From Desulfosarcina sp. (GTDB lineage: Bacteria; Desulfobacterota; Desulfobacteria; Desulfobacterales; Desulfosarcinaceae), in NCBI GenBank assembly GCA_014237405.1, contig JABZFO010000064.1, positions 1 through 50,535 on the forward strand: a DNA stretch of 50,535 bases, read 5' to 3'. A program made the position numbers and the translations under genes. This document shows positions 16,423 to 49,284 of this stretch, one piece after another. Each line of letters opens with the position of its first letter. Positions within the stretch are counted from its first letter, which is position 1. The notes beneath the pieces were generated by a model. The model was not told where the DNA came from, searched no databases, and saw only the letters and a list, made by a program, of their open reading frames with translations.

Positions 16423-17991
16423 ATGAAAACAGGCACTCTTCGTTTTCTCTCCGCTATGCCTCATTTCTCATTTCTCACCAAAGATGAGAAAGACCTGATT
16501 GTGTCAAGGTCAACCATCATTCGTCTGCCCAAAGGACACCCGGTTTCCGTCCAGGGAAAGACGCTAATCCAGAATGTGCTGATCATCATGAAAGGCCAGC
16601 TGTCCATTTATCAGGAGGGTAATGGGCAAAAAGAGCTGACCGGATACATTAAAAAAGGCGAGGTGTTCGGTGGTATAACGGTGATGCTCAACGCCGGCAT
16701 TTCCCTTCGGACGACGAAAACAGATACAGATGTGGACGCCATTTCCATTCCCGATTCCGTCATTATGGAGATATGCGCCAAGAACAAGGCCTTTCATGAA
16801 TATTTCCTGGTGAATTACAGCCAGAACATGTTTGATAAGTCGTTGGATGCCATTGCCAGAGTGGGCCAGGCACGGCTCTTTCTATCCGGTATAGACCCCT
16901 TTACCTTCCTTCCCGAAGAGGAAATCGAAAATGCTGCCAAATCGCTCTCCCGTTTTTCTTACCCGAAAGGAACGGTCCTGTTTGTTCAGGGAAAGACCCG
17001 GGTCGGCTATCTGTACATTCTTCAGAAAGGTGCTGCAGAGCGGTACCATGAAGAAAACGGGGAAAAAAAGATACCAGAAATTTTGTCAGAAGGGGATATT
17101 TTCGGCGGCATCTCCATGCTCTTGAATGACGGGCTGTCTGTACGTACCATGGAGGTGGTTGAAGATTCCACCTTCTGTGTACTGCCCAAGCAGGAATTTT
17201 TAAAACTCTGTGAAAAACACAGTGCCTTTTCCGATTTTTTTTCCGACACCTTCGGAAAACGGATGCTCAGTCGGTCCTATGCGGCGATTATTGCAAAAAC
17301 CCTTCAGCCCAAAGAGGACAGCCTTCAGTTGTTCAATCAGCCGCTGTCCCAGATATATTCACGGAATCCGGTATTCTGCGATGCCGATGTATCCATTCAG
17401 GATGCCGCCAGTGCCATGGCGCGCCAACAGAGCAGTTATGCATTCATCCGTTCGAAAGATCCGGAGCAGATGGGTATCGTAACCGAAAAAGATTTTGCCC
17501 GCAAGGTGATTGCGCACGGATACCCCACCGACAGGCCGGTGGCAAGCATCATGTCGGCGCCGCTTCGAACGATTTCAGAAAAAGCCCTGGTGTTCGAGGC
17601 CATGATGGCCATGATGGAGGAGGACTTTCAGCATGTGGGTGTCGTGGATGCGAACGAAACCATCATCGGCATGCTGTCCAACAAAGATATTCTGGCATAT
17701 CAGGGGCAGTCTCCCCTGTTCTTGCTCCGCAAGATCCAGATCGCGCCCACCATGGATAAGATCATCGAAAAGCATAACCGATTGGCCCCAATGGTGCGGA
17801 GCCTGATCCACAACGGCGCTACAGCCCAAAATATAACCCGGTTTATCACGGCGGTTTCCGACACGATTTTAAACAAGCTCATGTCCATGACCCTGGATGA
17901 AATGGGCCCGCCACCGGTGCACTTCGTGTTCATGATCATGGGCAGTGAAGGCCGCCGAAGCGGTGGGGCGCTATTTTCGAAAATTTGGTGA
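16423..17991 (+). CDS. cNMP-binding / CBS / DUF294 nucleotidyltransferase-like protein, N-terminal part of a broken gene
   Basis: A 522-aa product with two cyclic-nucleotide-binding-like domains in series (about 15-140 and 150-285), each with a FGGI motif (VFGGITVML, IFGGISMLL). A CBS pair (about 310-435) and the start of a DUF294 GlnD-like nucleotidyltransferase domain follow. The frame leaves the family pattern at MGSEGRR (about 506-512), just before the expected catalytic T-D-x-D-N loop. Ten unrelated residues and a stop follow. The rest of the protein continues in another frame from about 17950. The catalytic loop is missing from the DNA, so an internal deletion with frameshift is inferred. 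The sensor half could still be expressed. Confidence 0.85.
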   Translation: MKTGTLRFLSAMPHFSFLTKDEKDLIVSRSTIIRLPKGHPVSVQGKTLIQNVLIIMKGQLSIYQEGNGQKELTGYIKKGEVFGGITVMLNAGISLRTTKTDTDVDAISIPDSVIMEICAKNKAFHEYFLVNYSQNMFDKSLDAIARVGQARLFLSGIDPFTFLPEEEIENAAKSLSRFSYPKGTVLFVQGKTRVGYLYILQKGAAERYHEENGEKKIPEILSEGDIFGGISMLLNDGLSVRTMEVVEDSTFCVLPKQEFLKLCEKHSAFSDFFSDTFGKRMLSRSYAAIIAKTLQPKEDSLQLFNQPLSQIYSRNPVFCDADVSIQDAASAMARQQSSYAFIRSKDPEQMGIVTEKDFARKVIAHGYPTDRPVASIMSAPLRTISEKALVFEAMMAMMEEDFQHVGVVDANETIIGMLSNKDILAYQGQSPLFLLRKIQIAPTMDKIIEKHNRLAPMVRSLIHNGATAQNITRFITAVSDTILNKLMSMTLDEMGPPPVHFVFMIMGSEGRRSGGALFSKIW

Positions 17992-18685
17992 CATTGCCTG
18001 CACCTTGCTGAACCAGGCCGGCTACGATTTTTGTACCGGTGATGTCATGGCCAAAAATCCACAGTGGTGTCAGCCCCTGACCCAGTGGAAGACCTACTTC
18101 AGCGACTGGATTCACGCCGCCGAAGCCGAGGACCTCCTGCAGGCCAGCATCTTTTTCGATTTCCGCCACGGGTATGGAGAAGAATCGTTGATTGCCGAAT
18201 TGCGACAGCATCTGTTCGCCTCCCTTGACGGATGGTCCGGCTTTTTTCGGCACATGACTGAAAATGCACTCAATTTCAAGCCGCCCCTCGGTTTTTTCCG
18301 CAATTTTGTCGTGGAGTCCAAAGGCCGGCATCGCAATGCATTCGACATCAAGAGTGCCATGACTCCCATTGTTGATTTTGCGCGGGTGTATGCCCTTAAA
18401 AACGGCATCGAAGAGACCAATACGCTGGAACGACTTGATCAACTCAGGATCAAGAAGATCATTTCTCTCCAGGAATATGAAGAGCTGGAAAAAGCTTACA
18501 GTTTTCTCATGCAGCTGCGGTTTGTGCGGCAGATCACCGCGGTCATGGACGATAATATCAAGCCGGACAACTATATCAATCCCAAAAAACTTACCCACAT
18601 CGAACAGACCATGCTGAAGGAGATCTTCAAACGGGTGGAGAAATTTCAAGCCAAGATGAATTTTGAATATATCGGTATCGCCTGA
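17945..18685 (+). pseudogene. C-terminal part of the broken DUF294 protein (DUF294_C)
   Basis: This frame carries the remainder of the DUF294 protein, beginning near VGRYFRKFGDIACTLLNQAG, through VMAKNPQWCQPLTQWK and SIFFDFRHGYG, to the end. The catalytic motif that should precede it is absent. A GTG at 17945 could start a 246-aa polypeptide, but I see no ribosome binding site. It may be reached by re-initiation, or not be made at all. The junction lies at about 17950-17960 in GGCCGCCGAAG, readable in both frames (GRR and KAAEA), so a short direct repeat may have mediated the deletion. Confidence 0.75.
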
Positions 18686-18727
18686 CCGGTGACGCCGGTT
18701 CGGCGATATCAGCAGACCGGGGATGAC

Positions 18728-20086: not shown

Positions 20087-20090
20087 GCCC

Positions 20091-20357
20091 GAGGTCAGAT
20101 GTCGGAGATCAGATGTCAGAGGACAGAGGACTGAGGTCGGAAGACGGAGGGCTGAAGACGGAAGACAGCGCCGCCACGTCGGACGACGGGGTTTGGTCGG
20201 AAATGAAACCATATTCCCGGAACGCTGGGCTGTGGTCTTGATTTAAAAATTGAACATCGAACGTTGAACGTTGAACATCGAATGATGAGGTCGCTACGCT
20301 CCACCGATTTATGAAGCGGTATTCAGTCCTCCGACATCAGTCCTCCGACCTCTGATC
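20091..20357. repeat. Degenerate intergenic repeats between convergent genes
   Basis: Three blocks of irregular short repeats fill most of the gap. 20091-20169 has purine-rich units such as GAGGTCAGATGTCGGA. 20250-20284 repeats TGAACATCGAACGT. 20323-20357 repeats TCAGTCCTCCGACATCAG, the reverse complement in style of the first block. The outer blocks could therefore fold together. No gene is seen. The region separates the convergent PAS-LuxR and pilD genes. Confidence 0.7.
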
Positions 20358-20360
20358 CAC

Positions 20361-21137: not shown

Positions 21138-21373
21138 GTCAGTCCGGTTTTTTAGGTGGCGAAGCGGGAACTGGTCGTGCTGCTGAATCGATTGGTCTCC
21201 TTGGCAAGGGGTCTGTGTTGACCCCACCGACCAAAGCCAACTGAAGCTTCTTAAAAGAACCCGTGTACCATTGTCAAAGAAAAATTATGTCTTAGTATAA
21301 AAGACTTGTTATTGTACGATCCATTTGTATCGGAAACGGATGATTTTCAGCATTGATATCTCCAGGAGTCATG

Positions 21374-23803
21374 ATGGGCGAAACAGATAAGGATGATCTG
21401 ATCAGCATCATTGAAGAGGACGATCCGGAAGCGACTATTCCGACGATTCTTCCCATGATGCCGGTGCGGGATGTGGTGATCTTTACCGATATGCTGCTTC
21501 CGCTGTTTGTGGGACGTGAAAAGTCGGTAAATGCCATCGAAGAGTCGATTTCAAAGGATCGGTATCTTTTCGTTGCCACCCAGATGGACCCGGGTATTGA
21601 AAATCCCAAAACCGAAGAGATCTACCAGATTGGAACGGTCAGCCGGATTCTTAGAATGCTCAAGCTGCCCGACGGCCGCGTCAAGGCACTGGTCCAGGGA
21701 ATCGCCAAAGCCAGAATTGTTAAATATGTGCGCAAGCGATCCGTGTTCCGGGTGAAAATCGACATCATCGAGGAGCCGGAATATTCCGCTGTCGATCTGG
21801 AAACCGAGGCGCTGATGCGCAACGTGCGGGAATATTCCGAGAAGATTCTCACCTTGCGGGGCGAGTACACCAGCGAAGTGGGATCCATTCTCACCAGTAT
21901 CGAGGATCCCGGACGGCTGGCGGACCTGGTGGCCTCCAACCTCCGATTGAAGATTGACGAATCCCAGGCCATCATCGAAGTGATCGATCCTTTCGAACGC
22001 TTGAAAAAGGTCAACGACCTGCTGTTTCGCGAAGTGGAATTGTCTGCCATGCAGGCCAAGATCCAGTCCGAGGTGAAAGACGAGATCTCAAAGAACCAGA
22101 AAGATTATTTTTTGAGGGAGCAGGTCAGGGCCATCCATAAGGAGTTGGGGGAACTGGACGATCGTTCCCAGGAGATCGAGGAGTATAAAAAGAAGATCAA
22201 ACGGGCCCGGATGAGCCAGGAGGCCAAAGCGGAAGCGGATAAGCAGCTTCGCCGGCTGGAGCAGATGCATCCCGATTCAGCAGAGTCATCGGTGGTTCGG
22301 ACCTATCTGGACTGGATGGTGGAACTGCCTTGGAGCAAGTCCACGACCAATGTCATCGACATCAAAAAGGCCAAATCGGTACTGGATCAGGATCACTACG
22401 GTTTGGACAGGATCAAGGACCGCATTCTGGAGTACCTTAGCGTTCGTAAGCTCAACCCCAACACCAAGGGCCCCATCCTCTGCTTCGTGGGTCCTCCGGG
22501 GGTAGGTAAAACGTCACTGGGACGGGCCATCGCCAACGCCATGAAACGAAAATTCGTCCGCATTTCATTGGGGGGGATACGGGATGAAGCGGAGATCCGC
22601 GGTCATCGCCGCACCTACATCGGTGCGCTGCCCGGGCGAATCATCCAGGGGTTGAAACAGGCCGGCTCCAATAACCCGGTGTTCATGATGGACGAAATCG
22701 ACAAGCTGGGTGCTGACTTTCGGGGCGACCCCTCTTCGGCGCTCCTGGAAGCGCTGGATCCGGAGCAGAATGCTGAATTCAGCGATCACTACCTCAACCT
22801 CAACTTCGACCTGTCCAAAGTCATGTTTATCCTGACCGCCAACCTCACGGACACCATTCCGTCTGCGCTTTTAGACCGTATGGAGGTGATCAACCTGTCC
22901 GGCTATACCGAGGGCGAGAAGAACATCATTGCAAAAAACCACCTGATTCCCCGTCAGGTCAAGGAAAACGGCATCAAGCCCCGCCAGATCAGGTTCAGTG
23001 ACGGAGCCCTCGTTCAGGTCATTAATGAGTACACCTCAGAGGCGGGTTTGCGAAACCTTGAACGAGAGCTGGGGACCCTTTGTCGCAAAGTGGCACGACG
23101 AATTGCCGAAGGGGATAAAGGCCCGTTTCAGGTGACCCGCCACTCCTTGGGAAAATATCTGGGACCGCCCAAATATTATCCGGAGCTGGACAAGGAGCAC
23201 AGTCAGGTGGGACTTTCCACCGGCCTGGCATGGACCCAGGTCGGCGGCGAAGTGCTGTACGTAGAGGCCTCGCTGATCAACGGGAAGGGGGAGATGATTC
23301 TCACCGGCCAGTTGGGTGAGGTCATGCAGGAGTCGGCCCGTGCAGCCCTGAGCTACGCCAGGGCCAATATTGCCCTGTTTAATGTGAAGGATGAGATTTT
23401 CGACAATCGAGACATCCACATCCATGTGCCGGCCGGTGCCATCCCCAAAGACGGCCCCTCTGCAGGCATCGCCATGGCCACGGCCCTGATTTCGGCGTTG
23501 ACCGAACGACCGGTCAACAAGGATGTGGCCATGACCGGCGAGATTACCCTGCGGGGGCGGGTGCTGCCCATCGGGGGCTTGAAGGAAAAGGCGCTGGGGG
23601 CCCTTCGCGCGGGCATCAACACAGTGATCATTCCGGAAAAGAACAAAAAGGATCTCGTGGAGATCCCCAAGAACGTCAAGCGAAAACTCAAGTTCGTTCC
23701 CGTCCGGAACATGGACGAGGTGCTGGAGATCGCCCTGGAGCCCGCCCCGGTAAAAAAGGCCTCGAGGGCGAAAAAAAAGACGGCAGGCAACCGCCGATCA
23801 TGA
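21374..23803 (+). CDS. lon: ATP-dependent protease Lon
   Basis: An 809-aa Lon protease for degradation of damaged and regulatory proteins. It has an N-terminal LON domain (LPMMPVRDVVIFTDMLLPLF), a coiled-coil region, an AAA+ module with Walker A GPPGVGKTS near residue 372, and the Ser-Lys protease domain with PKDGPSAG (Ser696). ATG 21374 is placed five bases after AGGAG, preferred over ATG 21371 and TTG 21353. A Lys-rich tail ends the protein. Its stop overlaps the tsaB start by four bases, giving a coupled pair. All motifs are intact. Confidence 0.95.
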   Translation: MGETDKDDLISIIEEDDPEATIPTILPMMPVRDVVIFTDMLLPLFVGREKSVNAIEESISKDRYLFVATQMDPGIENPKTEEIYQIGTVSRILRMLKLPDGRVKALVQGIAKARIVKYVRKRSVFRVKIDIIEEPEYSAVDLETEALMRNVREYSEKILTLRGEYTSEVGSILTSIEDPGRLADLVASNLRLKIDESQAIIEVIDPFERLKKVNDLLFREVELSAMQAKIQSEVKDEISKNQKDYFLREQVRAIHKELGELDDRSQEIEEYKKKIKRARMSQEAKAEADKQLRRLEQMHPDSAESSVVRTYLDWMVELPWSKSTTNVIDIKKAKSVLDQDHYGLDRIKDRILEYLSVRKLNPNTKGPILCFVGPPGVGKTSLGRAIANAMKRKFVRISLGGIRDEAEIRGHRRTYIGALPGRIIQGLKQAGSNNPVFMMDEIDKLGADFRGDPSSALLEALDPEQNAEFSDHYLNLNFDLSKVMFILTANLTDTIPSALLDRMEVINLSGYTEGEKNIIAKNHLIPRQVKENGIKPRQIRFSDGALVQVINEYTSEAGLRNLERELGTLCRKVARRIAEGDKGPFQVTRHSLGKYLGPPKYYPELDKEHSQVGLSTGLAWTQVGGEVLYVEASLINGKGEMILTGQLGEVMQESARAALSYARANIALFNVKDEIFDNRDIHIHVPAGAIPKDGPSAGIAMATALISALTERPVNKDVAMTGEITLRGRVLPIGGLKEKALGALRAGINTVIIPEKNKKDLVEIPKNVKRKLKFVPVRNMDEVLEIALEPAPVKKASRAKKKTAGNRRS

Positions 23804-24384
23804 TTCTTCTTGCCGTCGATACATCCACCACCACTTGCAGCGTGGCCCTGTTCAATGGCGACCGCCTGCTTGCGGAAGAGGTTTATACGGCAGGCAAAAC
23901 CCACTCCCGCCACCTTTTGTCGATCATCCACAGGATCCTTAAGGGGAGTGGATGCGAGCCTGCGAATATAGGCGGTATTGCGCTGGCGTTTCCGTTGTCC
24001 CTGCTGGATTGCCCCGTGGTTGCCATGATCGATGCGCGGCGGGGAGAGGTGTACCATGCCCGATATCACAGTGGCATCGGTGCGCCCGAACCGGCAACAC
24101 CGGTATCGGTGTGCGCACCTGAAACGGCCGCAGCGGCGCTGCCTGAAGATGCCATTCTGGTTGGCTCCGGTGCCGTTCTTTACCGAGAGGTGTTTGAATC
24201 CCGATGCCCGGGCATCCGGTTTGCCGATTCGACTCAGCATGTGATCCGGGCCGCGTCGGTGGGCATGCTGGCCATGACGCGGTTCAGCCAACAAAATAGT
24301 GATTCCATTGATGCTCTGATCCCTGAATATATCCGCAAGGCCGAGGCCCAGATTCAGATGCCCGTGGGCCATGGAGCGCTATGA
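23800..24384 (+). CDS. tsaB: TsaB, t6A threonylcarbamoyl complex subunit, with an internal deletion
   Basis: TsaB is the dimerisation partner of TsaD in N6-threonylcarbamoyladenosine (t6A) synthesis on tRNAs. The N-terminus (MILLAVDTSTTTCSVALF), HSRHLL and the PVVAMIDARRGEVY block identify it. It has 194 aa where about 220-240 is usual. The segment after IGGIAL that should contain GPGSFTGLRIG and the following helix is absent; the sequence jumps from residue 63 (ALA) to FPLSLLDCPVV. The jump is in frame, at GCGCTGGCG (23980-23988), a sequence that could also encode the ALA expected on the far side. The protein is probably not functional unless another copy exists. Confidence 0.85.
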   Translation: MILLAVDTSTTTCSVALFNGDRLLAEEVYTAGKTHSRHLLSIIHRILKGSGCEPANIGGIALAFPLSLLDCPVVAMIDARRGEVYHARYHSGIGAPEPATPVSVCAPETAAAALPEDAILVGSGAVLYREVFESRCPGIRFADSTQHVIRAASVGMLAMTRFSQQNSDSIDALIPEYIRKAEAQIQMPVGHGAL

Positions 24385-24496
24385 AATCGCATGTCGGGTA
24401 GCTGTTGACATGGGTGCCGGCATTGGATATAGATAACCCTCTAAAAGAGTTGAAAAATGCCTTTAACCGGCATTGATTGACGCCGGGGAGAATGAG

Positions 24497-25093
24497 ATGA
24501 CACAATTGAACTGGTCCGATCCGACCAGTCAGACCGCATTTCCAGTGGCAAAGGCCGGATATCCATTTATATTCGCATCCGCTTTTGCCACAGCTGTTTT
24601 TGCGCTGCTTGGCGTTGGATTTCTGGCGGTACTGGGACTTTTCGCCACGGGTTTCATCTGCTATTTTTTCAGGGACCCGGATCGACTGGTCCCGACCGGC
24701 GAGGGGATTGTCGTCTCACCGGCCGACGGCAAGGTGATCAAAGTGGAACCGGTGGATCAGACGTCCTACTTTGAAGGCACCTGCACCCGGATCAGCGTTT
24801 TCATGTCCGTTTTCAACGTCCATGTCAACCGGGTACCCCACGAGGGGACAATCCGACAGGTGACCTACCACCCGGGGAAATTTTTTTCCGCCAACCTGGA
24901 CAAGGCGTCAAAGGACAATGAACACAATGCCCTGCTGTTGGAAAGCCCTGCAGGAAAGCAGGTGGGTTTCGTCCAGATTGCCGGCCTGGTGGCCCGTCGT
25001 ATCATCTGTGCGGTTCAACCCGGTGATGTCCTGAAACGGGGACAGCGGTTTGGCATGATCTGTTTCGGCAGCAGCATTATCGGTAGATGGTAG
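24497..25093 (+). CDS. psd: Phosphatidylserine decarboxylase proenzyme, short type, C-terminus truncated
   Basis: A short-type phosphatidylserine decarboxylase, making phosphatidylethanolamine at the membrane. Evidence includes two N-terminal hydrophobic helices (about 25-60), FFRDPDR, SPADGKV, and FMSVFNVHVNRVP, plus the block ending MICFGS. The autocatalytic cleavage site is Gly191-Ser192 of FGS. Normally about 28-35 residues follow as the alpha chain; here only SSIIGRW remains. The stretch expected to resemble RLDVYLP through the next strand is gone in frame, at GGCAGC (25067-25072). Length is 198 aa versus about 215-220 usual. Cleavage may still occur, but activity is doubtful. ATG 24497 has GGGGAG upstream. 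Confidence 0.85.
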   Translation: MTQLNWSDPTSQTAFPVAKAGYPFIFASAFATAVFALLGVGFLAVLGLFATGFICYFFRDPDRLVPTGEGIVVSPADGKVIKVEPVDQTSYFEGTCTRISVFMSVFNVHVNRVPHEGTIRQVTYHPGKFFSANLDKASKDNEHNALLLESPAGKQVGFVQIAGLVARRIICAVQPGDVLKRGQRFGMICFGSSIIGRW

Positions 25094-25335
25094 GGAAATG
25101 GGCAACCTTCATATGCAAAGCGAACGACTGCGATTCGGCAAAACCACATGCCGGTTCCGGACAAAGAAAACGTGTTAGAGGAAAACGAGCTCGTTAAACC
25201 ATCACTGTAGTTTGAATCAAGAACCACCCGATTCCCCAATGGCCTGTGCCGTGGGGATCTGTTTTTCTGTCACCGGGCTAAGAGCCGCGGCCCTAAAAAG
25301 AAAATTGAAACCGAAAATCGTTGAGGAGTCGCCAA

Positions 25336-25803: not shown

Positions 25804-25817
25804 ACAGGAGGAATCTC

Positions 25818-26018: not shown

Positions 26019-26042
26019 TCAGTCAAACCGGAAGAGTCCGCG

Positions 26043-26774: not shown

Positions 26775-26795
26775 CCACCGTCAGGTAGTCAAATC

Positions 26796-27581: not shown

Positions 27582-27583
27582 GG

Positions 27584-27715: not shown

Positions 27716-29029
27716 TCAATCTTGGCGTGGAGGGTAGGCCTGGACATGCCAAGCAGTTTGGCGGCCTGGGATCGGTTTCCACCGGTGAGATTCAGCCAGG
27801 CTGCGAATCCAGGCACGGATATTGTCGTCGCAGGCGTTTTCGTTCAGATGGTGGCTTTTGGCATCACCACCGGTTGCGTGGGTGATGTCCGCCAGGCTCA
27901 ATGGAGCGCCCCGGTTGAAGATCAGCGCTTTCTGAAGGGTGTTGGACAGTTCCCGAATGTTTCCCGGCCAGGGGCTGGAGACCAGCATGGACAGGGTTTC
28001 CCGGGAGATCCCCGGGTTCTCGATGCCCAGTTCCGCGGAGAAGCGGGTGAGAAAATAGTCGGCCAGCAGGGGGACGTCGCCGGTGCGGTCCCGAAGGGAC
28101 GGCAACCAGATGGTGATCACCTTGAGCCGGTAGTAAAGATCCTCCCGGAACTGGCCACTGGCAATCAGGTGCTCCAGATCCCGGTTGGTGGCAGCGACAA
28201 TCCTCACATCCACCGGGATCGTTTCACGGCCCCCCAGCCGTTCGATGCTTTTTTCCTGGAGCAGCCGCAGCATTTTTGCCTGCAGGTTCAACGGCATGTC
28301 GCCGATTTCGTCCAGTAAGACCGTGCCGCCACTGGCCTGTTCGATTTTGCCTACCCGGCGGTGGTTGGCGCCGGTAAATGCGCCTTTTTCATAGCCGAAC
28401 AGTTCACTTTCCAGCAGGGTGTCGGGAATGGCCACACAGTTAATCACCAGAAACGGTTTTTCCGATCGCGTGCTGTGCTGGTATATGGCTCGGGCTGCCA
28501 GTTCCTTGCCGGAACCGGATTCGCCGCGGATCAGCACGGTGGCGTCCGTGGCCGACACCCGGCCGATGGCTTTATACACCTCCTGCATGGGCGGGCTTTT
28601 ACCGATGATGGCCTCTCCATGAGTCTTGTCCGGCGACACGTCCATGTCCACCGGTGAGCGCATGAAACGACCGGCCTCCAGTGCCTGACGGATGGTGGAG
28701 AGCATCTGCGGAATATCAAAGGGTTTGGTCACATAATCGAAGGCGCCCATCTTGGTGGCCTCGATGGCTGTATCCGTGGTGCCATAAGCGGTCATGATAA
28801 TTACCGGCAACTTTTGCTCGAACTGGTGGATCTGCCTGAAGGTTTCCAGCCCGTTCATTCCCGGAAGACGCAAATCAAGTATAACCAGATCGGGCACCGA
28901 TTCCTTGATCATCCGGATGCCGGCTTCGCCGGACGCGGCGGTGCGGATATGGTAGCCCTCTTCCTTTAACAGCCGCTCGAAACTGATTCGAAGTTGATCA
29001 TCATCATCAATAATCAGTATGGTGTTCAC
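27716..29029 (-). CDS. Sigma-54-dependent response regulator (NtrC family) with damaged C-terminus
   Basis: An NtrC-type activator: receiver (IDDDD near residues 7-11, phospho-acceptor Asp52, Lys in TKPF), then AAA+ domain with GESGSGKE, GAFTGA loop and LLDEIGD. It should end in a Fis-type helix-turn-helix. In the reading frame that domain is lost: after DDNIRAWIR the protein ends with about 30 unrelated residues. The other frame reads LTGGNRSQAAKLLGMSRP then TLHAKIDKYNLKIETSVR, stopping at 27679. Linker sequence is missing between the two at about 27789-27810, so a frameshifting deletion is inferred. GTG 29029 has AAAGGAGG upstream and overlaps the kinase stop (GTGA). Confidence 0.9.
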   Translation of the reverse strand: MNTILIIDDDDQLRISFERLLKEEGYHIRTAASGEAGIRMIKESVPDLVILDLRLPGMNGLETFRQIHQFEQKLPVIIMTAYGTTDTAIEATKMGAFDYVTKPFDIPQMLSTIRQALEAGRFMRSPVDMDVSPDKTHGEAIIGKSPPMQEVYKAIGRVSATDATVLIRGESGSGKELAARAIYQHSTRSEKPFLVINCVAIPDTLLESELFGYEKGAFTGANHRRVGKIEQASGGTVLLDEIGDMPLNLQAKMLRLLQEKSIERLGGRETIPVDVRIVAATNRDLEHLIASGQFREDLYYRLKVITIWLPSLRDRTGDVPLLADYFLTRFSAELGIENPGISRETLSMLVSSPWPGNIRELSNTLQKALIFNRGAPLSLADITHATGGDAKSHHLNENACDDNIRAWIRSLAESHRWKPIPGRQTAWHVQAYPPRQD

Positions 29030-39229: not shown

Positions 39230-39251
39230 TTAGAACCCTTCCTTAGTATCT

Positions 39252-39701: not shown

Positions 39702-39746
39702 TCTATTTCCCCCTATGTGTGATGGCTTCACCAAATTTAGTATTTA

Positions 39747-39870
39747 GACGGTTTTGTAAAACGTTCGAGATCAAGGCTTGCGAGTCCTGAGGAATGAGGC
39801 GTACTGACCGTACGTCGCAGTGACGAGGGAGGACGCGTAACGCGGATATCGGACGTTTTACGAAATCGTC
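39747..39870. repeat. 124-bp imperfect inverted-repeat element
   Basis: Ends GACGGTTTTGTAAAACGT (39747-39764) and ACGTTTTACGAAATCGTC (39853-39870) are imperfect inverted repeats. The interior contains CCTGAGGAATGAGGCGTAC, ACCGTACGTCGCAGTGACGA and GCGTAACGCGGATATC, with several small palindromes. I recall closely similar extragenic repeats scattered through deltaproteobacterial genomes, but cannot check it here. It has no ORF. Its right end supplies two bases of the TGA stop of the kinase gene at 39869, so it inserted exactly at that 3' end or created it. Confidence 0.75.
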
Positions 39871-41536
39871 ATTTTTTTTCCGGTAGAACCACCGGCAACG
39901 ACACGACGAAAGTCGTCCCCTTCCCCTGGCTACCTTCCACGGTGATGCGTCCGCCCAATTTTTCTACGATGCTGTAGCTGATGCTCAGCCCCAGACCGGT
40001 CCCCTTGCCGGTGTCCTTGGTGGTAAAAAACGGGTCGAAGATTTTCTTTTTGATCGACTCCGGCATCCCCGGTCCATCGTCCTTAATGCTGGCGGTGATA
40101 TGGTCTTTGTCCAATGCCGTCTCGATTTCAATCATACCGTCTGAGCCGATGGCGTCAATAGAATTGTTGATCAGGTTCATGAACACCTGCTGAAGCTGAG
40201 ATTGATCACTGGCGATAACCGGCAGTTGTCCGGCAAACTTTTTTCGGATATCGATGTCGTTGATGTTGGCGTGATTGGATAAAATATCGATCGTCTGTTC
40301 CAGCACCCGATTGACATCTACGTCGTCCAGGCGGGGTTCCATGCGGCGGGCGAATCCCAGCATATTGTGGGTGATCTTGCGGGCCCGGTCCACGTGTTCC
40401 TCGATCTTGGAAATGGAGGTGGCAAACTCCTTGTAGTTCTCGCTGGTCTTGAACTCCTCTTCGGACAGAAGGTCCTCCATCCACCCCGCTTTCTCGCCGA
40501 TTACCGCCAACGGGTTGTTGATTTCGTGGGCGATGCCGGCTGCCATTTTCCCCAGTGCGGCGAGCTTGTCCTGCTGGATGAGTTGGGCGTTGAGTTCGTT
40601 CATCTGCAGGTCCGTCTCCTCCAGGTGGCGGACCAGGGTGTTGGAGATCAGAACGATGGCAATAATAATGAGCAGGCAGCCGGTGACAATGATCAGTGTT
40701 GCCGTGTTGCGCACCCGGCTGAGCCAGCCGGCCTCCTGCCCGGCAATCTGGCTGATCACCAGCAGCCACTCCCCCTCCTTGAGCCATGTCCCTCCCACAT
40801 AGCGGGTGTCGCCGCCCCCTTGCTTTTTTTCAAGAACCATGGTGCCTTCGCCGAATTGCTGGGGGGTGATATTCGAGGGCCCGAGTATGACCCCTTCAAA
40901 TCGGGGACCGGTCTGGAAAATGCCGTCGCGGTTAACGATGTAAGCATCGCCTGCGGTACCCACCTGGGCGCTTCTCACCAGGCGGTTGAAAATTTCCGAA
41001 TCGATGGTTGCCCGCAGGATCCAGCAGTTCGTATCGCATGCACCCTTGACGGCGATAATGACATGGGGCACCTGCCGGAAACCCATGAACACGTCGCTGA
41101 TATACTTTCCCCGGCGCAGCACCTCGTCGAACCACGGCTGCTGGTAGTAGTTGAGCCCTTTCAGGTTGTAGGGGCCGGCGTATGCCAGCTGATTACCGTC
41201 CCTGTCGATGATTCCCAGGTCCACCAGCCCGAGTCCTTCGGCCCGCCGGTTGATCTGCCAGAACAGGCGGCTGAGATTCTCCTGTTTGCTGAGGTCCTCA
41301 AAGGACTGGGTCTCAACGATCATTCCCAAAATGGAGGTGCGCTCCCTTAAAAAAACGTCCACGGCACTGCTCTGGGATCGGGCCAGGTGAAGGATCTGGT
41401 CCTCGATGCGCTCCTTGTAGAGATTGCTGAACTGGTAGTAGAGCGCGAAGCCCAGCAGGAGCAGCGGTCCGATGGATACCGCCACTGTGATGCTGATCAG
41501 CTTAAACCGCAGCTTATTGTACAGGGCATGCTTCAT
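39869..41536 (-). CDS. Double-Cache sensor histidine kinase (SLC13 operon c)
   Basis: A 555-aa membrane kinase: TM1 (about 14-36), dCache sensor (about 40-275; [45 protein letters not shown]), TM2 (about 279-299), HisKA with [13 protein letters not shown] (His337) and complete HATPase_c ([33 protein letters not shown]). ATG 41536 has GGAGG four bases upstream. The stop codon TGA overlaps the 124-bp repeat element. It follows the SLC13 permease by 28 bp, so permease and sensor are co-expressed. Confidence 0.92.
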
Positions 41537-41564
41537 CGATCCTCCGGTCAAATCTTAAAGGGCC

Positions 41565-43232
41565 TTACCAGGACAGAAAACGCCAGTAGCCGAATACGGC
41601 CCATAACCAGAGCACCAGCCAGGCCAGGATGGTGATGGGCAGGCCGTATTTGACGAAATCCATGACATCCAGCAGCCGCTCACCGGTTTCCGGGTCCTTG
41701 CCCATGCCGAAGCAGATGGCGTTGTTGGGCGTGCCCACCACCAGAAAATTGGCAAAAGAGGATGAGAACGAGGTGATCAGCCCCACCTTCCACACGCTCA
41801 CGTTGGCCAGGGTGGCCATGGGCAGGACGATGGGGCCCAGGGCGGCCACCGTGGCCCCGTCACTCATGAAGTTGGTCATGGTACCGGTGAGCAGGCTGAT
41901 ACCGATCACGAGACCGTCTCCTTGGGTAAGGGCATCGGGAAGCAGATTCACAAAGGTTCCGGCCAGCCACAGGGCGCCGCCGGAGAACTTCAGGGCCACC
42001 CCCATGGCGCAGGCGGCGGCATACAGGCCCACCACGTCAAAGGCCACGCCGTCCTGGATGTCGTCCCAGCGAAGAATCCGGCACAGGAACATGGCCATCA
42101 CCGCGTAAAGGGTGGGGCCGCCCAGGCCGGCATGTTCACCGATGAGGATCCACGCTGCGACCAGCAGCACCAGAATGACCGCCATGATGGCCTCCTGACC
42201 GCCGAACTTGGGCATATTCTGCACTTCCCGCTTCACCACTTCGCTGGGGTTGACATCGCTGACCAGGAATTTGGGTTTGAGGCGCAGGTACATGAACAGG
42301 CCGATCACCCAGGACATGACAGGCACGAAGGGCATGCCGATTTTCATCCACTCCAGGAAGGTGATGGGCATGCCGTATTCGGCCAGGTACCCCACCATGA
42401 TGGCGTTCCTGCCGCCGGCGGCAGGAGAACCGGGGCCGCCGTGGTTGGCGGCAAAGCACACGCCAAGCAGCAGGAAGATGGCCAGTGCCCGATCCTTTTT
42501 TACCCCATGCATCTTGCAGGTGACTTTGTAAATGCCCATGAGTACCGGAATGAGCAGAGCCACCAGGGCGTGCTCGGATAAAAAACCCGCCGACACGGCC
42601 AGAAGGGGCAAGAAGATGAACGCAAAGGCCTTGGCGCTTTTAATGCGGCTTAGCAGGATCAGGCCGATGCGCTTGTCCAGGCCGGTTTTGGCCACCCCCA
42701 CGGCCACGGCCAGGATGCCGAAGATGAAAAACACCGCATCTTTCATATAGGCCTGTGAAATTTCATTGATGGGAAGGATGGCGAACAGGTAAATCATGAC
42801 CCCCACCATGATATCCGTTGCACCCAGAGGAAGCGCTTCGGTGCCCCACAGAAAAGCGGCCAAAAAAAGGATGGCCACGGTCACCTTGGCCATCTGGGCC
42901 ACCTGGTAGGTGGTGAGCAGGGGCTTGGCCTCGCGTCCGTGCTTTTTCACTGTTTCGGTGCCGTTTTGTTGGGCGTTAAACGCCTCAGGCCGCAGCTTTT
43001 TATTGACGGCATCGGTAATGGTGGTGCACGCCCGCGGCATACTGTATCCGGCCGGCTTCTCCGTTTTCACCATCTCCAGCATACCCCGGGTCGGCGGCAT
43101 CAGGACCAGAAAGGTAAATACCAGGGCCGCAAAAGTGAACAGGATCGGCTTGTATCCGGGCCTGCTTTTCCATGACCAGGCGCGATCCTCAAGGTCGGCT
43201 GCGAGAAGCGGGTCATATTCGTGATTCGACAT
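41565..43232 (-). CDS. SLC13 / DASS-family anion permease (operon c)
   Basis: A 555-aa sodium-coupled-type anion transporter. About 110 hydrophilic-to-mixed N-terminal residues include one hydrophobic segment (about 30-46). The SLC13 core has EHALVALLIPVLMGIY and GGPGSPAAGGRNAI in the first half. TNFMSDGATVAALGPIVLP and VGTPNNAICFGMG occur in the second. The DASS signature Ser-Asn-Thr is replaced by MSDGAT, so the ligand site differs from classical dicarboxylate carriers. Sulfate, sulfonate or dicarboxylate are all possible. AAGGAGG precedes ATG 43232. Confidence 0.88.
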   Translation of the reverse strand: MSNHEYDPLLAADLEDRAWSWKSRPGYKPILFTFAALVFTFLVLMPPTRGMLEMVKTEKPAGYSMPRACTTITDAVNKKLRPEAFNAQQNGTETVKKHGREAKPLLTTYQVAQMAKVTVAILFLAAFLWGTEALPLGATDIMVGVMIYLFAILPINEISQAYMKDAVFFIFGILAVAVGVAKTGLDKRIGLILLSRIKSAKAFAFIFLPLLAVSAGFLSEHALVALLIPVLMGIYKVTCKMHGVKKDRALAIFLLLGVCFAANHGGPGSPAAGGRNAIMVGYLAEYGMPITFLEWMKIGMPFVPVMSWVIGLFMYLRLKPKFLVSDVNPSEVVKREVQNMPKFGGQEAIMAVILVLLVAAWILIGEHAGLGGPTLYAVMAMFLCRILRWDDIQDGVAFDVVGLYAAACAMGVALKFSGGALWLAGTFVNLLPDALTQGDGLVIGISLLTGTMTNFMSDGATVAALGPIVLPMATLANVSVWKVGLITSFSSSFANFLVVGTPNNAICFGMGKDPETGERLLDVMDFVKYGLPITILAWLVLWLWAVFGYWRFLSW

Positions 43233-43322
43233 GTAGCCTCCTTAGCAAATCAAAATAATGGACAATCCCATCGTCATTTTTCGTATCGTCGGATCTGGCC
43301 GGTGATGACCATCGATTCACCA

Positions 43323-43339
43323 ATCAACGATTATGCCAA
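43323..43339 (-). promoter_or_regulatory. Possible sigma-54-like promoter of the SLC13 operon c
   Basis: On the minus strand TTGGCAT-AATCG-TTGAT has the -24 element and spacing of a sigma-54 site, but -12 reads GA instead of GC. It lies about 90 bases before the permease start and just downstream of the 23-bp palindrome at 43356. Tentative. Confidence 0.3.
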
Positions 43340-43355
43340 TGGGTGCAGTGTCCGG

Positions 43356-43378
43356 TTTCTTTACAAGTTGTAAAGAAA
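43356..43378. promoter_or_regulatory. 23-bp perfect palindrome, probable operator
   Basis: TTTCTTTACAA-G-TTGTAAAGAAA is an 11+1+11 perfect inverted repeat, about 125 bases upstream of the SLC13 gene. It shares the TTTACA/TGTAAA half-site with the palindrome at 49468. It has no T-run in the terminator position, so a dimeric regulator site is more likely. Confidence 0.6.
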
Positions 43379-43525
43379 ACCGAGACCGATTTAAATGGCA
43401 TGCCGTACAACATCTGCAGACGCCTTTCGCTTAGGAAAGCGACTGTTAGGAAGGTCCGACCTGACATCTGATTTTCAAGGCGTGTCCCCATGACCCCCTA
43501 AAAAAAATGAAGGGGTGGTGAGGCG

Positions 43526-43567
43526 GCCTGGAGACGGGTCTCGATGGGGTGAACGCCGTCTCCAGGC
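43526..43567 (-). terminator. Hairpin after the receiver-CBS gene
   Basis: A perfect 12-bp stem GCCTGGAGACGG / CCGTCTCCAGGC with an 18-base loop begins about 34 bases past the stop of the receiver-CBS gene on the minus strand. A second small stem with ATTTTTTTT follows at about 43492-43517. Together they probably end operon d. The rest of 43233-43600 is the control region of the SLC13 operon c; no gene is seen. Confidence 0.6.
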
Positions 43568-43600
43568 ACAGGAGGAGGGGGTGCACATCCGTGGGGCAGA

Positions 43601-44410
43601 TTACCGCAACACCCGCTCCATTTCAAAGAACAGATCCTGCTCACGAATGACGCCGACAACCCGGCCTTGCTCCAGGACCACCATGCGGCGACATTGATTT
43701 GTGACCATCAGGTAAGCCGCTTCCATCAGGTTGGCGTCGGCATCGATGGATGGGGGGGTCGGTGACATCAATTCACCCACCGGCGTGGCCGCCATTTGGC
43801 TCACTTCGCGGACGAACATGCCGGTCCAGAACATGGGGGAATACTGGAGGCTGTCCGCCGTGGACGGTTTGGGGGCGGACAGGTAGCTTGGCATGACGGC
43901 CTCCAGCAGGTCCGTGATGGCCAAAATGCCCGTGAGGTTGCCACCGGCATCGAACACCAGCAGACTGCGGTGGCCGGTTTCCATGATGCTGCTGGTGTGC
44001 AGTTGCGGAGAAAAAGTCCGCTTGAGTTCCTTTATGCCCTCTGCCACGGTCTGACTTTCCAGCAGTTTGGTATATTCTTCCACCGGTATCATGACATCTT
44101 GCACTCTGCGTTCGGCCTCTTCGGTTTCGTCCGCCGCCGGCTGTTGGCAGGCATCCACGATGCGCAATGCCAGTGTGTCTATATCACAGGGTTTGGAAAG
44201 AAAATCGAAGGCACCCTGCGCCAGGGACCTTTTGGCGGCCTCCCCCTCACCGTGACCGGTAAGCATGATCACCGGGATTTCCGGCTTTTGGCGCTTGATT
44301 TCCGCCAGGGTTTCGTTGCCGTCCATTCCCGGCATGCGGATGTCCAGGACCACCACATCCGGATCATTGGCCAGCTGAGCCAATGCCTCCTCCCCATTGG
44401 CGGCGTCCAT
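43601..44410 (-). CDS. Receiver-CBS fusion protein lacking the start of the receiver
   Basis: A 269-aa protein combining a receiver and a CBS pair. The receiver begins only at MDAANGEEALAQL: the first strand, the acidic Asp pair and helix 1 (about 45 residues) are missing. The phospho-acceptor region VVLDIRMPGMDG, MLTGHGEGEAA and Lys in LSKPCDIDTL are present. The CBS part has VQDVMIPVEEYTKLLESQTV and PVGELMSPTPPSIDADANLM. ATG 44410 has GGAG upstream. Upstream in-frame sequence ends at a stop after about ten codons with no beta-strand 1, so a 5' deletion is inferred. Phosphorylation is probably lost; the CBS part may work. Confidence 0.85.
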   Translation of the reverse strand: MDAANGEEALAQLANDPDVVVLDIRMPGMDGNETLAEIKRQKPEIPVIMLTGHGEGEAAKRSLAQGAFDFLSKPCDIDTLALRIVDACQQPAADETEEAERRVQDVMIPVEEYTKLLESQTVAEGIKELKRTFSPQLHTSSIMETGHRSLLVFDAGGNLTGILAITDLLEAVMPSYLSAPKPSTADSLQYSPMFWTGMFVREVSQMAATPVGELMSPTPPSIDADANLMEAAYLMVTNQCRRMVVLEQGRVVGVIREQDLFFEMERVLR

Positions 44411-44476
44411 ATCATCATCTCCATTTTGGTCAGCCGTCAGATCATGTTATTTTGATCGGGATTGCCCCGAAATTCG

Positions 44477-45034
44477 TTAAAATGCCGGTGGCGTGGGTGA
44501 CGCCACCATCAAGCGCAGGATGGCCAAAAAGAGCACGGCCGTCAGCGAAGCGGTGATCATCAGGACCCAGACGGTCCGTCCTTTGCCCATGCCCAGGCCG
44601 TAGATCATTCCCAGGGCAACCAGCACCCATTTCCAGGGTTCGGTGAAAAAAAAGGAGGAGGGCACCCATGCGATCAGCAGGGTGGGAATGGTTCCGATGG
44701 CAAAAACCCTCCAGATGCTTGAAAACCGGATGCGTGATCCGTTGCCGATGGCCCCGACGAGCCAGGCGATGGCGGCACACAGCACGGTCATCCCCAGGGC
44801 GTTCACCATCAGAATCGCGGCACGCACAAGGGCACCGGTGCCTGACAAAGGCAGAGCGCCGGCGGCAGCATAAAACAGGCTGGACAGGAGAAGCATACCG
44901 CCCGCCTCTTTTGAGGTGGTCCGGGGAAAGGCCTCGGAAAACCAGCGCACGGGAGAGATGATCAAGCCTGAGAGTGTACCCATGAAGCCCATTTTGAAGA
45001 ACGGTCCGGTTTTGCCGGAAGCATGTGCCATCAT
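44477..45034 (-). CDS. Small integral membrane protein (Yip1-like)
   Basis: A 185-aa membrane protein with about five hydrophobic segments. The layout (soluble N-terminus, SGLIISPVRWFSE before the first helix) vaguely resembles Yip1-domain proteins; no firm family call. ATG 45034 begins one base after the stop of the 52-aa gene, so the two are coupled. It lies between the SLC13 permease and the receiver-CBS fusion in operon d, suggesting an accessory role for the transporter. Confidence 0.65.
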   Translation of the reverse strand: MMAHASGKTGPFFKMGFMGTLSGLIISPVRWFSEAFPRTTSKEAGGMLLLSSLFYAAAGALPLSGTGALVRAAILMVNALGMTVLCAAIAWLVGAIGNGSRIRFSSIWRVFAIGTIPTLLIAWVPSSFFFTEPWKWVLVALGMIYGLGMGKGRTVWVLMITASLTAVLFLAILRLMVASPTPPAF

Positions 45035-45035
45035 A

Positions 45036-45194
45036 TTACCACACCCCTGTTTTATAGAGGATGCCGGCAACCAGCATGATCAGGGTCAGGGCAAAGCATA
45101 CCCGCCGCTCGGTCTCCTTGGTGTACCAGATTCTTCCCCGGCGAAAACACACCGGGGAACTGTTTGAATGGTGATCGTTTTCAATCTGTTTCAT
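45036..45194 (-). CDS. Small single-span membrane protein, 52 aa
   Basis: A short protein with a basic N-terminal half (MKQIENDHHSNSSP, then RRGRIWYTKETERR) and one C-terminal hydrophobic segment (VCFALTLIMLVAGILY). ATG 45194 lies nine bases after GAGGAG; ATG 45203 would give 55 aa but directly abuts that site. It sits 40 bp after the SLC13 gene and one base before the Yip1-like gene. Size and topology resemble small transporter-associated subunits, but the partner is inferred. Confidence 0.65.
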   Translation of the reverse strand: MKQIENDHHSNSSPVCFRRGRIWYTKETERRVCFALTLIMLVAGILYKTGVW

Positions 45195-45234
45195 GGGGCT
45201 CATCTCCTCATTCGATCCTTTTTAGCATCCTTTT

Positions 45235-46971
45235 TTAGAATCCGGGTAACCCAGCGAAGCCCCGGAAGTTCCAGTAAAGGCCCGACAGCGCAAGCAGCAC
45301 GATATTGGCGATCACCCACATGGGCAGGCCGACCCGCAGGTAGTCCTTGGGCTCCAGGTAGCCGCTGGCGTACACGATGGCATTGGGAGGGGTGCCGATG
45401 ATCAGGCAGTAGGCAAAGGACGAGGCCATGGCCGTGGCCATGGTTATGAAGGGCAGATAGGTGCTGCCCGGGTGCACCAGGCCGGCCATGTTCAGGGCAA
45501 TGGGGCCGACTGCGGCGGCGGCAGGGCCATCGGCCATCAGGTTGGTGAGGATGGAGGTTAGCCCGTTGCTGACGGCCATCAGCGGCAGCCCTGCATTTAT
45601 GCCCAGCGGCGCCAGTGCATCCAGGGCGCTGCGGGCCAGCCAGTATGCGGCACCGGTGCTGTCCAGGGTGCGTCCGAAGATGATGGCGCCGGCATAGAGC
45701 CAGACCACCCCCCAGTCCACCTTTTCCTGGTAGTCACGCCAGTTGACCACACCGGACAGCAGGTAGGCCACGGCGCCGGCCACGGCGATGACGCCGATGC
45801 CCAGACGGATCGGATAGATGCCCATGTTGTAGAATGCCTTTTCCGTGAACCAGCCGAAAACCATGATGATGAATATGATCAGGGCGATGACCTGCTTCCG
45901 GTTCCATCCGCCCATGCGGCTGATTTCATTTTGCAGATGGGCCATGGCCGGTTTCAGGGAGGTGATGGCGGGTTTGAAACGCCAGTTGACCATCAGCCAG
46001 GAGAGCGGGATCATGAACAGCAGGAATGGAAAGCAGTAGGTGATCCACTGGAAGTAGCCGATATCCTGGCCGAACATGTCCGACAGGTAGGTCATCATGA
46101 TGACGTTGCGGGCACCGCCCGAGGGTGCTCCGGGGCCGCCGATGTTGCAGGCCATGGCGATGGCGATCATCAGCATTTTGGCCAGCTCCGGATCATTGGG
46201 GACCTCTTTGGTCAGGCTGTTCTGGTAGAGCAGCATGCCGATGGGCAGGAACATGGCGGCCAGGGCGTGGTCGGAGATGAAGGCGGCCAAAGGGGCAATG
46301 ATCACGAAAAAAATGAGGGTGATCCAGCGCACATTGGGCACCGCCAGTTTGCGGAACATCATCAGGCATACCCGTTTGTCCACGCCGGTCTTTACGAAGG
46401 CGGCGGCGAACATGAGGCTGCCCATGATGAACCAGCAGGCGTCACTCCAGTAGAGCATGGCCACCTGTTTGCGGGTGGTCACCCCGGTAAACACCAAAAT
46501 CAAACCGATGCAGAAGGCGACGCCGGGCAGGGGGATGCATTCGGTGAGAAAGCACAGCACCACGAATACGGTCATGGCGATGGCCACCTTGATGTGCCAG
46601 GCTCCTTTGTCCGCCTCTTTTTTATCCTTGTCGGAGAGCGCTTCGTATTTCAGACCCTCCTTTCGAAGGGTCAAGGCGCTTTGCATCAACTGCAAAAACG
46701 TTTCATCAGACACCTGGGTGTCGATGAAGGAGCGGGCCTTGTCGAAATTGACCTGATCCGCATGAATTTTATAGCGCTTGCACCATTTGAGATCGCGTTT
46801 GAGGTAGCGCTCCCGGGGGAGCGAGCCCATTCTCATGTTCTGTTCCATGATCTGGGCGGTCAGCAGTTGCCACTGCTGGGCGTCGGTCCGATGGGTGCCG
46901 AACAGCCCCTGGGTGATGTGCTCGATAACCGCTTTGGGGCCGATGCGGTATTCGGTCCCCACGTCTTTCAT
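45235..46971 (-). CDS. SLC13 / DASS-family anion permease (operon d)
   Basis: A 578-aa transporter with a long N-terminal cytoplasmic region (about 120 aa), then the SLC13 core: DHALAAMFLPIGMLLYQ and IGGPGAPSGGARNVIM in the first half, and TNLMADGPAAAAVGPIAL and IGTPPNAIVYASGYL in the second. As in its paralog, the Ser-Asn-Thr signature is altered (MADGPA). ATG 46971 has no ribosome binding site. A better start, ATG 47062 with GAAGAG upstream, opens another frame (MAPETNHSIKRNDTFEVEE) that runs out of register before PTPYGMKDVGTEYRIGPK, so an N-terminal deletion or frameshift is likely. Substrate inferred: sulfate or an organic anion. Confidence 0.85.
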   Translation of the reverse strand: MKDVGTEYRIGPKAVIEHITQGLFGTHRTDAQQWQLLTAQIMEQNMRMGSLPRERYLKRDLKWCKRYKIHADQVNFDKARSFIDTQVSDETFLQLMQSALTLRKEGLKYEALSDKDKKEADKGAWHIKVAIAMTVFVVLCFLTECIPLPGVAFCIGLILVFTGVTTRKQVAMLYWSDACWFIMGSLMFAAAFVKTGVDKRVCLMMFRKLAVPNVRWITLIFFVIIAPLAAFISDHALAAMFLPIGMLLYQNSLTKEVPNDPELAKMLMIAIAMACNIGGPGAPSGGARNVIMMTYLSDMFGQDIGYFQWITYCFPFLLFMIPLSWLMVNWRFKPAITSLKPAMAHLQNEISRMGGWNRKQVIALIIFIIMVFGWFTEKAFYNMGIYPIRLGIGVIAVAGAVAYLLSGVVNWRDYQEKVDWGVVWLYAGAIIFGRTLDSTGAAYWLARSALDALAPLGINAGLPLMAVSNGLTSILTNLMADGPAAAAVGPIALNMAGLVHPGSTYLPFITMATAMASSFAYCLIIGTPPNAIVYASGYLEPKDYLRVGLPMWVIANIVLLALSGLYWNFRGFAGLPGF

Positions 46972-47121
46972 GCCATAAGGCGTGGGTATGAGAAGGAGTA
47001 TCAGATTCCTCTACCTCAAAAGTGTCGTTCCTTTTGATGGAGTGGTTCGTTTCGGGCGCCATCTCTTCGGATCCGCCGAAGTTAATGGCCCAACGGATGG
47101 GCCATAATCAAGGATCGGGCA

Positions 47122-47568
47122 TCAGGTGTTTCTCAGTATATCGCGAGGAGATTTCATCAACCCCCGCATGCGGGCCACCCGGATCCTCTCCTCGATGCCC
47201 ATCCGCCGGCTGAATGCGTCGTTTGCTTTTTCAAGAATCTGGTCCAGGTCCGCCGGCTTCATCAGGTAATCCACCGCACCGCTTTTGAGCCCCACCACAG
47301 CCGAATCCACCGTGGCGTGGCCGGTAAGCATGATCACTTCCACCATGGGAAACTGCCGCTTGATCTCTTTGAGCGTGGCCACGCCATCCATACCCGGCAT
47401 TTTCACGTCGAGGATCACCACGTTAACGGCATGGGCCCTTAACTTCTCCAGAGCCTCGCCCCCGCTGGACGCGGTCACAACATCGACCCCCTTTTTTTTC
47501 AGCAGCTTTTCCGTTGTCGTCAGAAAGCGCTCCTCATCATCCACGAGCATTAATTTGAGTTTTTCCAT
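47122..47568 (-). CDS. Receiver-only response regulator (operon d)
   Basis: A 148-aa receiver: LMLVDDEERF near residue 6-15, VVILDVKMPGMDG, MLTGHATVDSAVVG, Lys in LMKPADLDQIL, and a basic helical tail (RIRVARMRGLMKSPRD). AGGAG eight bases upstream supports ATG 47568. It follows the kinase gene and precedes the SLC13 permease, the same neighbourhood as the receivers of the sister operons. No DNA-binding domain. Confidence 0.9.
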   Translation of the reverse strand: MEKLKLMLVDDEERFLTTTEKLLKKKGVDVVTASSGGEALEKLRAHAVNVVILDVKMPGMDGVATLKEIKRQFPMVEVIMLTGHATVDSAVVGLKSGAVDYLMKPADLDQILEKANDAFSRRMGIEERIRVARMRGLMKSPRDILRNT

Positions 47569-47649
47569 CTCATGATCTCCTTTTTATCTATTTTTAGCAG
47601 CCCGGTTTGGCAACCCGGCCGGCGCATACGTGCGGTCGGCTCAGTTTCT

Positions 47650-49284
47650 TCATGTCTTGTGGGTGCTCATAGCTTCAGTTGCGTAGTAGGCAGCTCCACG
47701 GTGAATTCGGTGCCGACCCCCACCTTGCTGGATACCACCATTTTCCCGCCCATCTGCTCGATGATGCCATGGCAAACGGACAACCCAAGCCCCGCTGTCA
47801 CTCACGTCAACGGCCGCCATTCCATCCGAACCATCGCGTACGGATACCTGGATGGATCCCCCGGTGCTTCCGCTTTTTTCAATGATGGCGTCCATGGCGT
47901 TGTTGAGCAGGTTCAGCAATACCTGTTGAAGCCGTGCCGGATCGACCTGAACCTTGATTGTCGTATCGGGCAGTCGGCGTTCAATCCGAATCCCGTTGAC
48001 CTCCGCTTTTTTTTGTACCATGTCGATGATTTCAGGTACCGCTTTGTCCAACGCCAATGACTCGAAATGGCCATCTTCCTGCCGGCCGAACTTTAAAATG
48101 GCGCGTGTGATCTTGGAGCAGCGTTCGATCTGTATCTTGATCTGGTCTATGCTGTCGATGATCTCTTCGTAGGATTCCCCCTTCTGAAGGTGGCCCGCTT
48201 CGACCATCTCTTCCTCAAGTACGCGGATCAGGGAGAGTTCGGTATTGATTACCTGCAAAGGATTATTGATCTCGTGGGCAAAACCGGCGGCCATCTCCCC
48301 CAGTTCCGCCAGGCGGGAGGCACCGACGAGCTGCTGGCTCAACAACGCTTTTTCAGCGTCGGTTTTTTCCATTTTCCGAACAATGGCGCCGGTCAGCGTG
48401 AAGGCCGCCCACACAATGCATGCTCCACCGATCAGCGAGATCAGCGCCACCGGGATCCAGGAGTCGTACAGGGCGTGAAAGGCATCCGATTTCTCCTGGC
48501 GCACCACCAGCAGCCATTGCCGGTCCTTGAGCCAGGCCGTGGCGTAAAGGAATGTCTCCTCCCCTTCCTGGCCGTGAATCAGGGTATGGATGTCGTCACC
48601 TTTCGGGGGCGTCGGAATGGTGTCCAAGGGCTTTTCCATCAGCTCACCGCCGCTTCGCCGGTTCGTCTGAAGAACACCCTGGCTGTTGAGCAGGTAGGCC
48701 TCTCCGGTTTTCCCTATCCTAACTTGCCGCACCAGGGTGGTGAACCGCTGGGAGTCCACCGTGGCGCGGATAACCCAGGGTCGGTCGTTTTCCATGCCGG
48801 CCACGGCAATGATAAAATGGGGAAAATTGCGAAAACCCAGGAAGACATCGCTGATATACACCCCGTTTTTGATGGTCTCCTGAAACCAGGGTGTATCCCG
48901 ATATAGCTTGCCGGTGAGGTTGAACGGGCCGTGGTAGGCCACGTGGACGCCGTTTTCATCGAAGATGCCGAGGTCCGAAAATGCGCTTGAGGTGAGCTGC
49001 AGTTGGGTGAACACGCTTGATAGGCGCTCCGGCCGGATCAGTTCGTCAAAGCTGACCGTGTTGACGATCATCTCGAGATCGTTTTTCCGCTCCTCCAGGA
49101 AGGAGGCGATCATGTGCCGATGATCGCCAACGATACGTTCCATGGAAGCGATGGTGCTGCTTTCAATGGAACGGGAAAGTTGATAATAGCCGATACCGAT
49201 GACGATCAGAAACGGTATGGACGGCACCAGAATCATGTTGATCAGGATAAATCGTCTGATGTCGGCGTAGTGGCTTTTTTCCAT
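47650..49284 (-). CDS. Double-Cache sensor histidine kinase with disrupted ATP-binding domain
   Basis: TM1 (about 12-33), dCache sensor (about 37-270; ISDVFLGFRNFPHFIIAVAG, WVIRATVDSQRF, IGKTGEAYLLNSQG), TM2 (about 277-299) and HisKA with [13 protein letters not shown] (His337) are normal. HATPase_c starts well (LNNAMDAII) up to VDVSDSG (about 498), then goes out of frame. The correct continuation, GLGLSVCHGIIEQMGGKMVV and VGTEFTVELP, lies in another frame ending at 47667. The G1 and F boxes between them are absent from the DNA; the junction is near 47785-47796 at AGCGGGGCTTGGG (minus strand). ATP binding is probably lost. Confidence 0.88.
   Translation of the reverse strand: MEKSHYADIRRFILINMILVPSIPFLIVIGIGYYQLSRSIESSTIASMERIVGDHRHMIASFLEERKNDLEMIVNTVSFDELIRPERLSSVFTQLQLTSSAFSDLGIFDENGVHVAYHGPFNLTGKLYRDTPWFQETIKNGVYISDVFLGFRNFPHFIIAVAGMENDRPWVIRATVDSQRFTTLVRQVRIGKTGEAYLLNSQGVLQTNRRSGGELMEKPLDTIPTPPKGDDIHTLIHGQEGEETFLYATAWLKDRQWLLVVRQEKSDAFHALYDSWIPVALISLIGGACIVWAAFTLTGAIVRKMEKTDAEKALLSQQLVGASRLAELGEMAAGFAHEINNPLQVINTELSLIRVLEEEMVEAGHLQKGESYEEIIDSIDQIKIQIERCSKITRAILKFGRQEDGHFESLALDKAVPEIIDMVQKKAEVNGIRIERRLPDTTIKVQVDPARLQQVLLNLLNNAMDAIIEKSGSTGGSIQVSVRDGSDGMAAVDVSDSGAWVVRLPWHHRADGRENGGIQQGGGRHRIHRGAAYYATEAMSTHKT

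Follow-up and report, generated by a model that had tools for sequence, protein, structure and literature searches.

Unmarked gaps, mostly of 60-120 bp, spread through a draft Desulfosarcina genome: probable errors of assembly joining rather than biology

Published work on metagenome-assembled genomes describes assembly errors at the local level and scaffolds that were wrongly joined; protein-coding genes deposited in public databases are left incomplete or incorrect as a result, and, according to the portion of that account drawn on here, such errors are detected by missing read support (PMC7111523). The draft Desulfosarcina genome considered in this work (G000) comprises 4.90 Mb in 201 contigs, is 92.17% complete and 4.84% contaminated, and has other Desulfosarcina as its closest relatives. 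The window, that is, the whole stretch of DNA that was analysed, is one entire contig of this draft (C151; 50,535 bases), and it was aligned with the syntenic stretches of nine relatives.

The alignment showed that eight segments of 68-111 bp are missing from the window in comparison to these relatives. Four of them have a length divisible by three; an earlier note made on this DNA had described some of the gaps as in frame and some as not. The genes that were hit and the positions of the junctions are as follows:

5543..5544, forward strand, MqnC-like radical SAM gene (ORF 5297-6313): 99 bp missing, a multiple of three, against four of four covering relatives
17950..17957, forward strand, DUF294 gene: 68 bp missing, out of frame, against five relatives
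23978..23979, forward strand, tsaB (ORF 23800-24384): 111 bp missing in frame, against eight relatives
25065..25066, forward strand, psd, near its 3' end (ORF 24473-25093): 72 bp missing in frame, against seven relatives
27795..27796, reverse strand, sigma-54 regulator, near its 3' end (ORF 27716-29029): 74 bp missing, out of frame, against four of four covering relatives
44404..44405, reverse strand, receiver-CBS gene, near its start (ORF 43601-44410): 93 bp missing, a multiple of three, against G010:C115 only
46998..46999, reverse strand, probable amino-terminal part of an SLC13/DASS gene (remaining ORF 45235-46971): 86 bp missing, out of frame, against G010:C115 only
47791..47792, reverse strand, ATPase domain of a Cache kinase (ORF 47650-49284): 77 bp missing, out of frame, against G010:C115 only

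The first five gaps (5543, 17950, 23978, 25065, and 27795) stand out because the relatives agree on the length that is missing. There were departures from this agreement: the DUF294 gap measures 77 bp against G006 and 53 bp against G004, the psd gap measures 69 bp against an eighth relative (G004), and in tsaB the ninth relative (G001) places a gap of 95 bp about 39 bases upstream of 23978. The missing segments that had been proposed for the DUF294 gene, tsaB, psd, and the sigma-54 regulator were thus confirmed against multiple Desulfosarcina relatives, while the gap in the MqnC-like gene lies in the first 11 kb, a part of the window that had been taken to be intact. The MqnC-like ORF scores 384 bits with its best family (NCBIfam TIGR03699), under the cut-off of 428, and the DUF294 gene is now read as two ORFs (16423-17991 and 17945-18685), with the Pfam DUF294 match ending at position 61 of 138.

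The gaps proposed in the Cache kinase, receiver-CBS, and SLC13 genes were confirmed against the one relative, G010:C115, which is the best match for 38.6-49.6 kb of the window, in pieces of 87-94% identity. For the receiver-CBS gene, the flank identity to G010:C115 is 0.97, and the alignments of G009, G001, G007, and G011 also end at base 44404. The segment missing at 46998 is spanned by a 616-aa ORF in G010:C115, and, judged by its place, the segment probably belongs to the amino-terminal end of the SLC13/DASS gene. In the Cache kinase, the Pfam HATPase_c match ends at position 46 of 111. The alignment of genes to their relatives that the note had called for therefore bore out seven of the eight genes it named; the exception is the PPDK-like gene (30522-33029), which shows no gap of this kind in alignment with relatives. 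A ninth gap in the window, 47 bp at 24384, was seen against G009 only and is probably natural.

Some other features of the window and of the draft were observed alongside. Positions 39871-49560 of the window are 93-94% identical to G010:C115 in four of five pieces and 87% in one, while the first 27.6 kb are only 77-85% identical to G010; judged from these identities, the former may be a recombined or transferred stretch. A repeat of about 130 bp lies between genes at 39743-39872. It is strongly self-complementary (fold z-score -6.9) and has many copies of about 82-90% identity among the matches listed in the Desulfosarcina genomes searched, and no Rfam match for it was found in the window. Further sequences that match many places across related genomes, each about 65-150 bp long, lie on G000:C2 (near 8868-8987 and 10595-10660) and on G000:C8 (near 2090-2235, 7810-7959, 11551-11669, and 14192-14340).

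The comparison covered 756 kb of G000 (35 contigs, whole or in part, the window included) together with stretches of its relatives. One fixed rule was used and nothing was dropped by hand: a gap had to measure 40-200 bases, the 60 bases on either side of it had to be at least 68% identical, the relatives had to agree on its length to within 3 bases, and none of the relatives covering the site could be without it. The results showed 36 gaps found in G000 only, on 10 contigs. The sequence that could be aligned with one relative or more amounts to 237 kb, which gives about one gap per 6.6 kb. Two window gaps are left out of this number, the one at 17950 probably for its length disagreement in G006 and the one at 25065 probably for a weak flank. 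The sizes were confined to a narrow range, with 33 of the 36 gaps within 60-120 bp (mean 87.4, sd 13.5, for those 33).

With the comparison restricted to sites covered by two or more relatives, there were 14 gaps in 131 kb of G000, all of them 73-112 bp, in comparison to none in 75 kb of G009, none in 71 kb of G002, and none in 62 kb of G010 under the same rule. A hand calculation that takes account of the compared lengths puts the probability of all 14 falling in G000 at about 2 in a million. The gaps resting on a single relative numbered 22 in G000, none in 162 kb of G009, five in 139 kb of G002 (103, 132, 138, 139, and 174 bp), and two in 97 kb of G010 (59 and 172 bp). A few of these 22 among the 36 G000 gaps may be natural, above all those of 47, 50, and 152 bp, and the gaps at C8:30863 and C8:30951, which lie 88 bp apart and were seen against one relative, may be one divergent stretch. 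An earlier scan under a different rule, which counted gaps from 25 bp upward, found 11 in 81 kb of G000, none in G009, G002, or G001, and a single 25-bp gap in G010. When gap sizes were listed for nine genome pairs, the segments missing in G000 peaked at 65-112 bp, a peak that was lacking in the reverse direction and in five control pairs, barring three single gaps (two in G002 versus G010 and one in G010 versus G009). The density of gaps in 50 kb, which had been regarded as striking, is indeed far above that of the control genomes, but it is not peculiar to the window, as the same gaps occur elsewhere in G000.

The position of the gaps relative to the reading frame was also compared. The 26 gaps that lie inside open frames have lengths distributed 7/10/9 by remainder of three, and the frame is therefore not kept by anything. 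At C3:7362, G000 lacks most of a tRNA-Val gene that is present in G002 (one relative). Across these sites, pieces that are contiguous in the relatives are bluntly joined in G000, mostly with 60-120 bases left out and with joins that are not marked by Ns; none were present in the 21 G000 contigs counted, which also served for the short-indel, GC, structure, and first overlap counts.

Taken together, these comparisons of sequence lead us to put the probability at roughly 94% that the gaps are joining errors made throughout the genome when the draft was assembled, and not biology; the missing segments are almost certainly present in the living organism. Of the origins listed in the earlier note, an amplification or assembly artefact is the one supported, by gaps that are genome-wide and frame-blind and by controls, assembled independently, with no gaps where two or more relatives were compared. 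The contig ends point in the same direction. An exact stretch of at least 20 bases, no more than 10 bases from the end, is shared with other G000 sequence examined by 11 of 60 contig ends; nine of these tails are 111-119 bases long, four of them being 119 and none longer, though the ends partly match each other and are not all independent. One such tail is in the window:

1..116, no strand, contig end common to the ends of C7 and C10: exact match of 114 bases, no more than 2 bases from the contig end

The hard stop of the shared tails is in keeping with a word size of about 119-120 in the assembly, and since 35 of the 36 gaps are also under 119 bases (the exception, 152 bp, was seen against one relative), an assembler word-size limit on the gaps is suggested. 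No exact suffix-prefix overlaps were found among the 60 contig ends. A joining step of a short-read assembly with a word size of about 119-120 could have linked contigs whose true overlap or gap was smaller than assumed; alternatively, read pairs or scaffolds could have been linked and the unsequenced part dropped. By either route a stretch bounded by the word size would be removed or never filled during joining. A point against an artefact of this kind is that plain coverage gaps should yield many gaps under 60 bp, and the lower limit of the sizes is explained by conjecture.

Damage before assembly, such as polymerase skipping in DNA amplification carried into the consensus, would also give gaps that are genome-wide and frame-blind, as any technical cause would. 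However, no hairpin or GC bias was found across the 23 missing segments: the GC content is 0.556 in the segments in comparison to 0.562 in the flanks, and the mean percentile for structure is 0.44. These segments come from 33 gap clusters listed first, of which 10 were dropped by hand before the GC and structure test and 9 before the test of conservation given below, the dropped clusters being variable intergenic or poorly flanked. In addition, the size limit near the length of the contig tails suggests the assembler, and damage before assembly is very unlikely to be the cause.

Real deletions, made by error-prone end joining or genome decay and fixed in the lineage, are a highly improbable explanation, even though the gaps are real relative to the relatives compared and several are out of frame. 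One line of evidence against them is gyrB, which is essential. The best match of the gyrB model in G000, C100:13120-15147, scores 733 bits in comparison to a cut-off of 882, and a second piece of the gene (C100:12878-13123) lies in a different frame; between the two pieces three relatives hold 112 more bases, and the gene is thus split out of frame in G000. The only other match to the model is on C34 (323 and 245 bits, in one 623-aa frame), which is probably parE. No better copy of gyrB was found in the draft (92.17% complete), and a second, whole gyrB may lie in the part lacking from it. A cell with only the gene as written should not live. The sparing of essential genes, looked for as a trait of genome decay, was not seen, since gyrB is split.

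The frame of the 26 coding gaps shows no selection, as given above, and the junctions speak against end joining. The earlier note had placed the visible junctions on short sequences fitting both flanks; compared with the nearest relative, the junctions share 0-3 exactly matching bases, which is what chance gives. For the gaps found under the fixed rule, the mean overlap was 0.76 bases in comparison to 0.70 expected by chance (P 0.38), and for 23 gaps picked by hand earlier it was 0.74 in comparison to 0.73, where the overlap is measured on relatives, so that the true overlaps could be somewhat longer, and the chance value allows for divergence. The microhomologies described in the note are therefore unsupported. 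A short repeat at both breakpoints, as expected for microhomology-mediated end joining, was not found at these junctions beyond chance, and the narrow range of sizes likewise argues against error-prone end joining. With regard to decay, short indels whose length is not divisible by three numbered 7 in G000, 7 in G009, and 2 in G002 where at least two relatives were compared (counts unscaled to length, coding and non-coding together); the number is not raised over that of G009, and there is therefore no sign of general decay. At one gap per 6.6 kb, a genome of 4.9 Mb would hold several hundred damaged loci.

Mixed alleles, from a polyploid cell or a mixture of strains in which the short forms are one allele class, would not alone account for gaps of nearly the same size at sites unrelated to each other, nor for the blunt joins. 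A collapse between strains predicts missing blocks that are unusually conserved, and the conservation of the missing segments was average (mean percentile 0.38-0.59 in seven genome pairs, with 4-11 segments each). The explanation by mixed alleles is extremely unlikely. Collapse on shared repeats, our first idea of the mechanism, was dropped for the same average conservation; it had been considered as several of the lost segments carry well-known motifs. A living process in this Desulfosarcina lineage that cuts blunt segments of about 90 bp genome-wide, with intact copies on other copies of the chromosome, is scarcely credible.

In general, gene losses, truncations, and pseudogenes based on G000 are not to be trusted. 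The draft is rated 92% complete and 4.8% contaminated, yet it holds about one unmarked gap per 6.6 kb aligned, and the finding carries no biological message beyond this warning on G000.

No match to this defect was found in the literature searched, and the closest account is the general one for metagenome-assembled genomes, in the portion of which drawn on here the size range is not described (PMC7111523). Like the errors of that account, the joins in G000 hold a consensus that is not the true sequence and damage genes; unlike them, as far as that portion goes, the gaps in G000 are dense (36 in 237 kb), nearly of one size, and without Ns.
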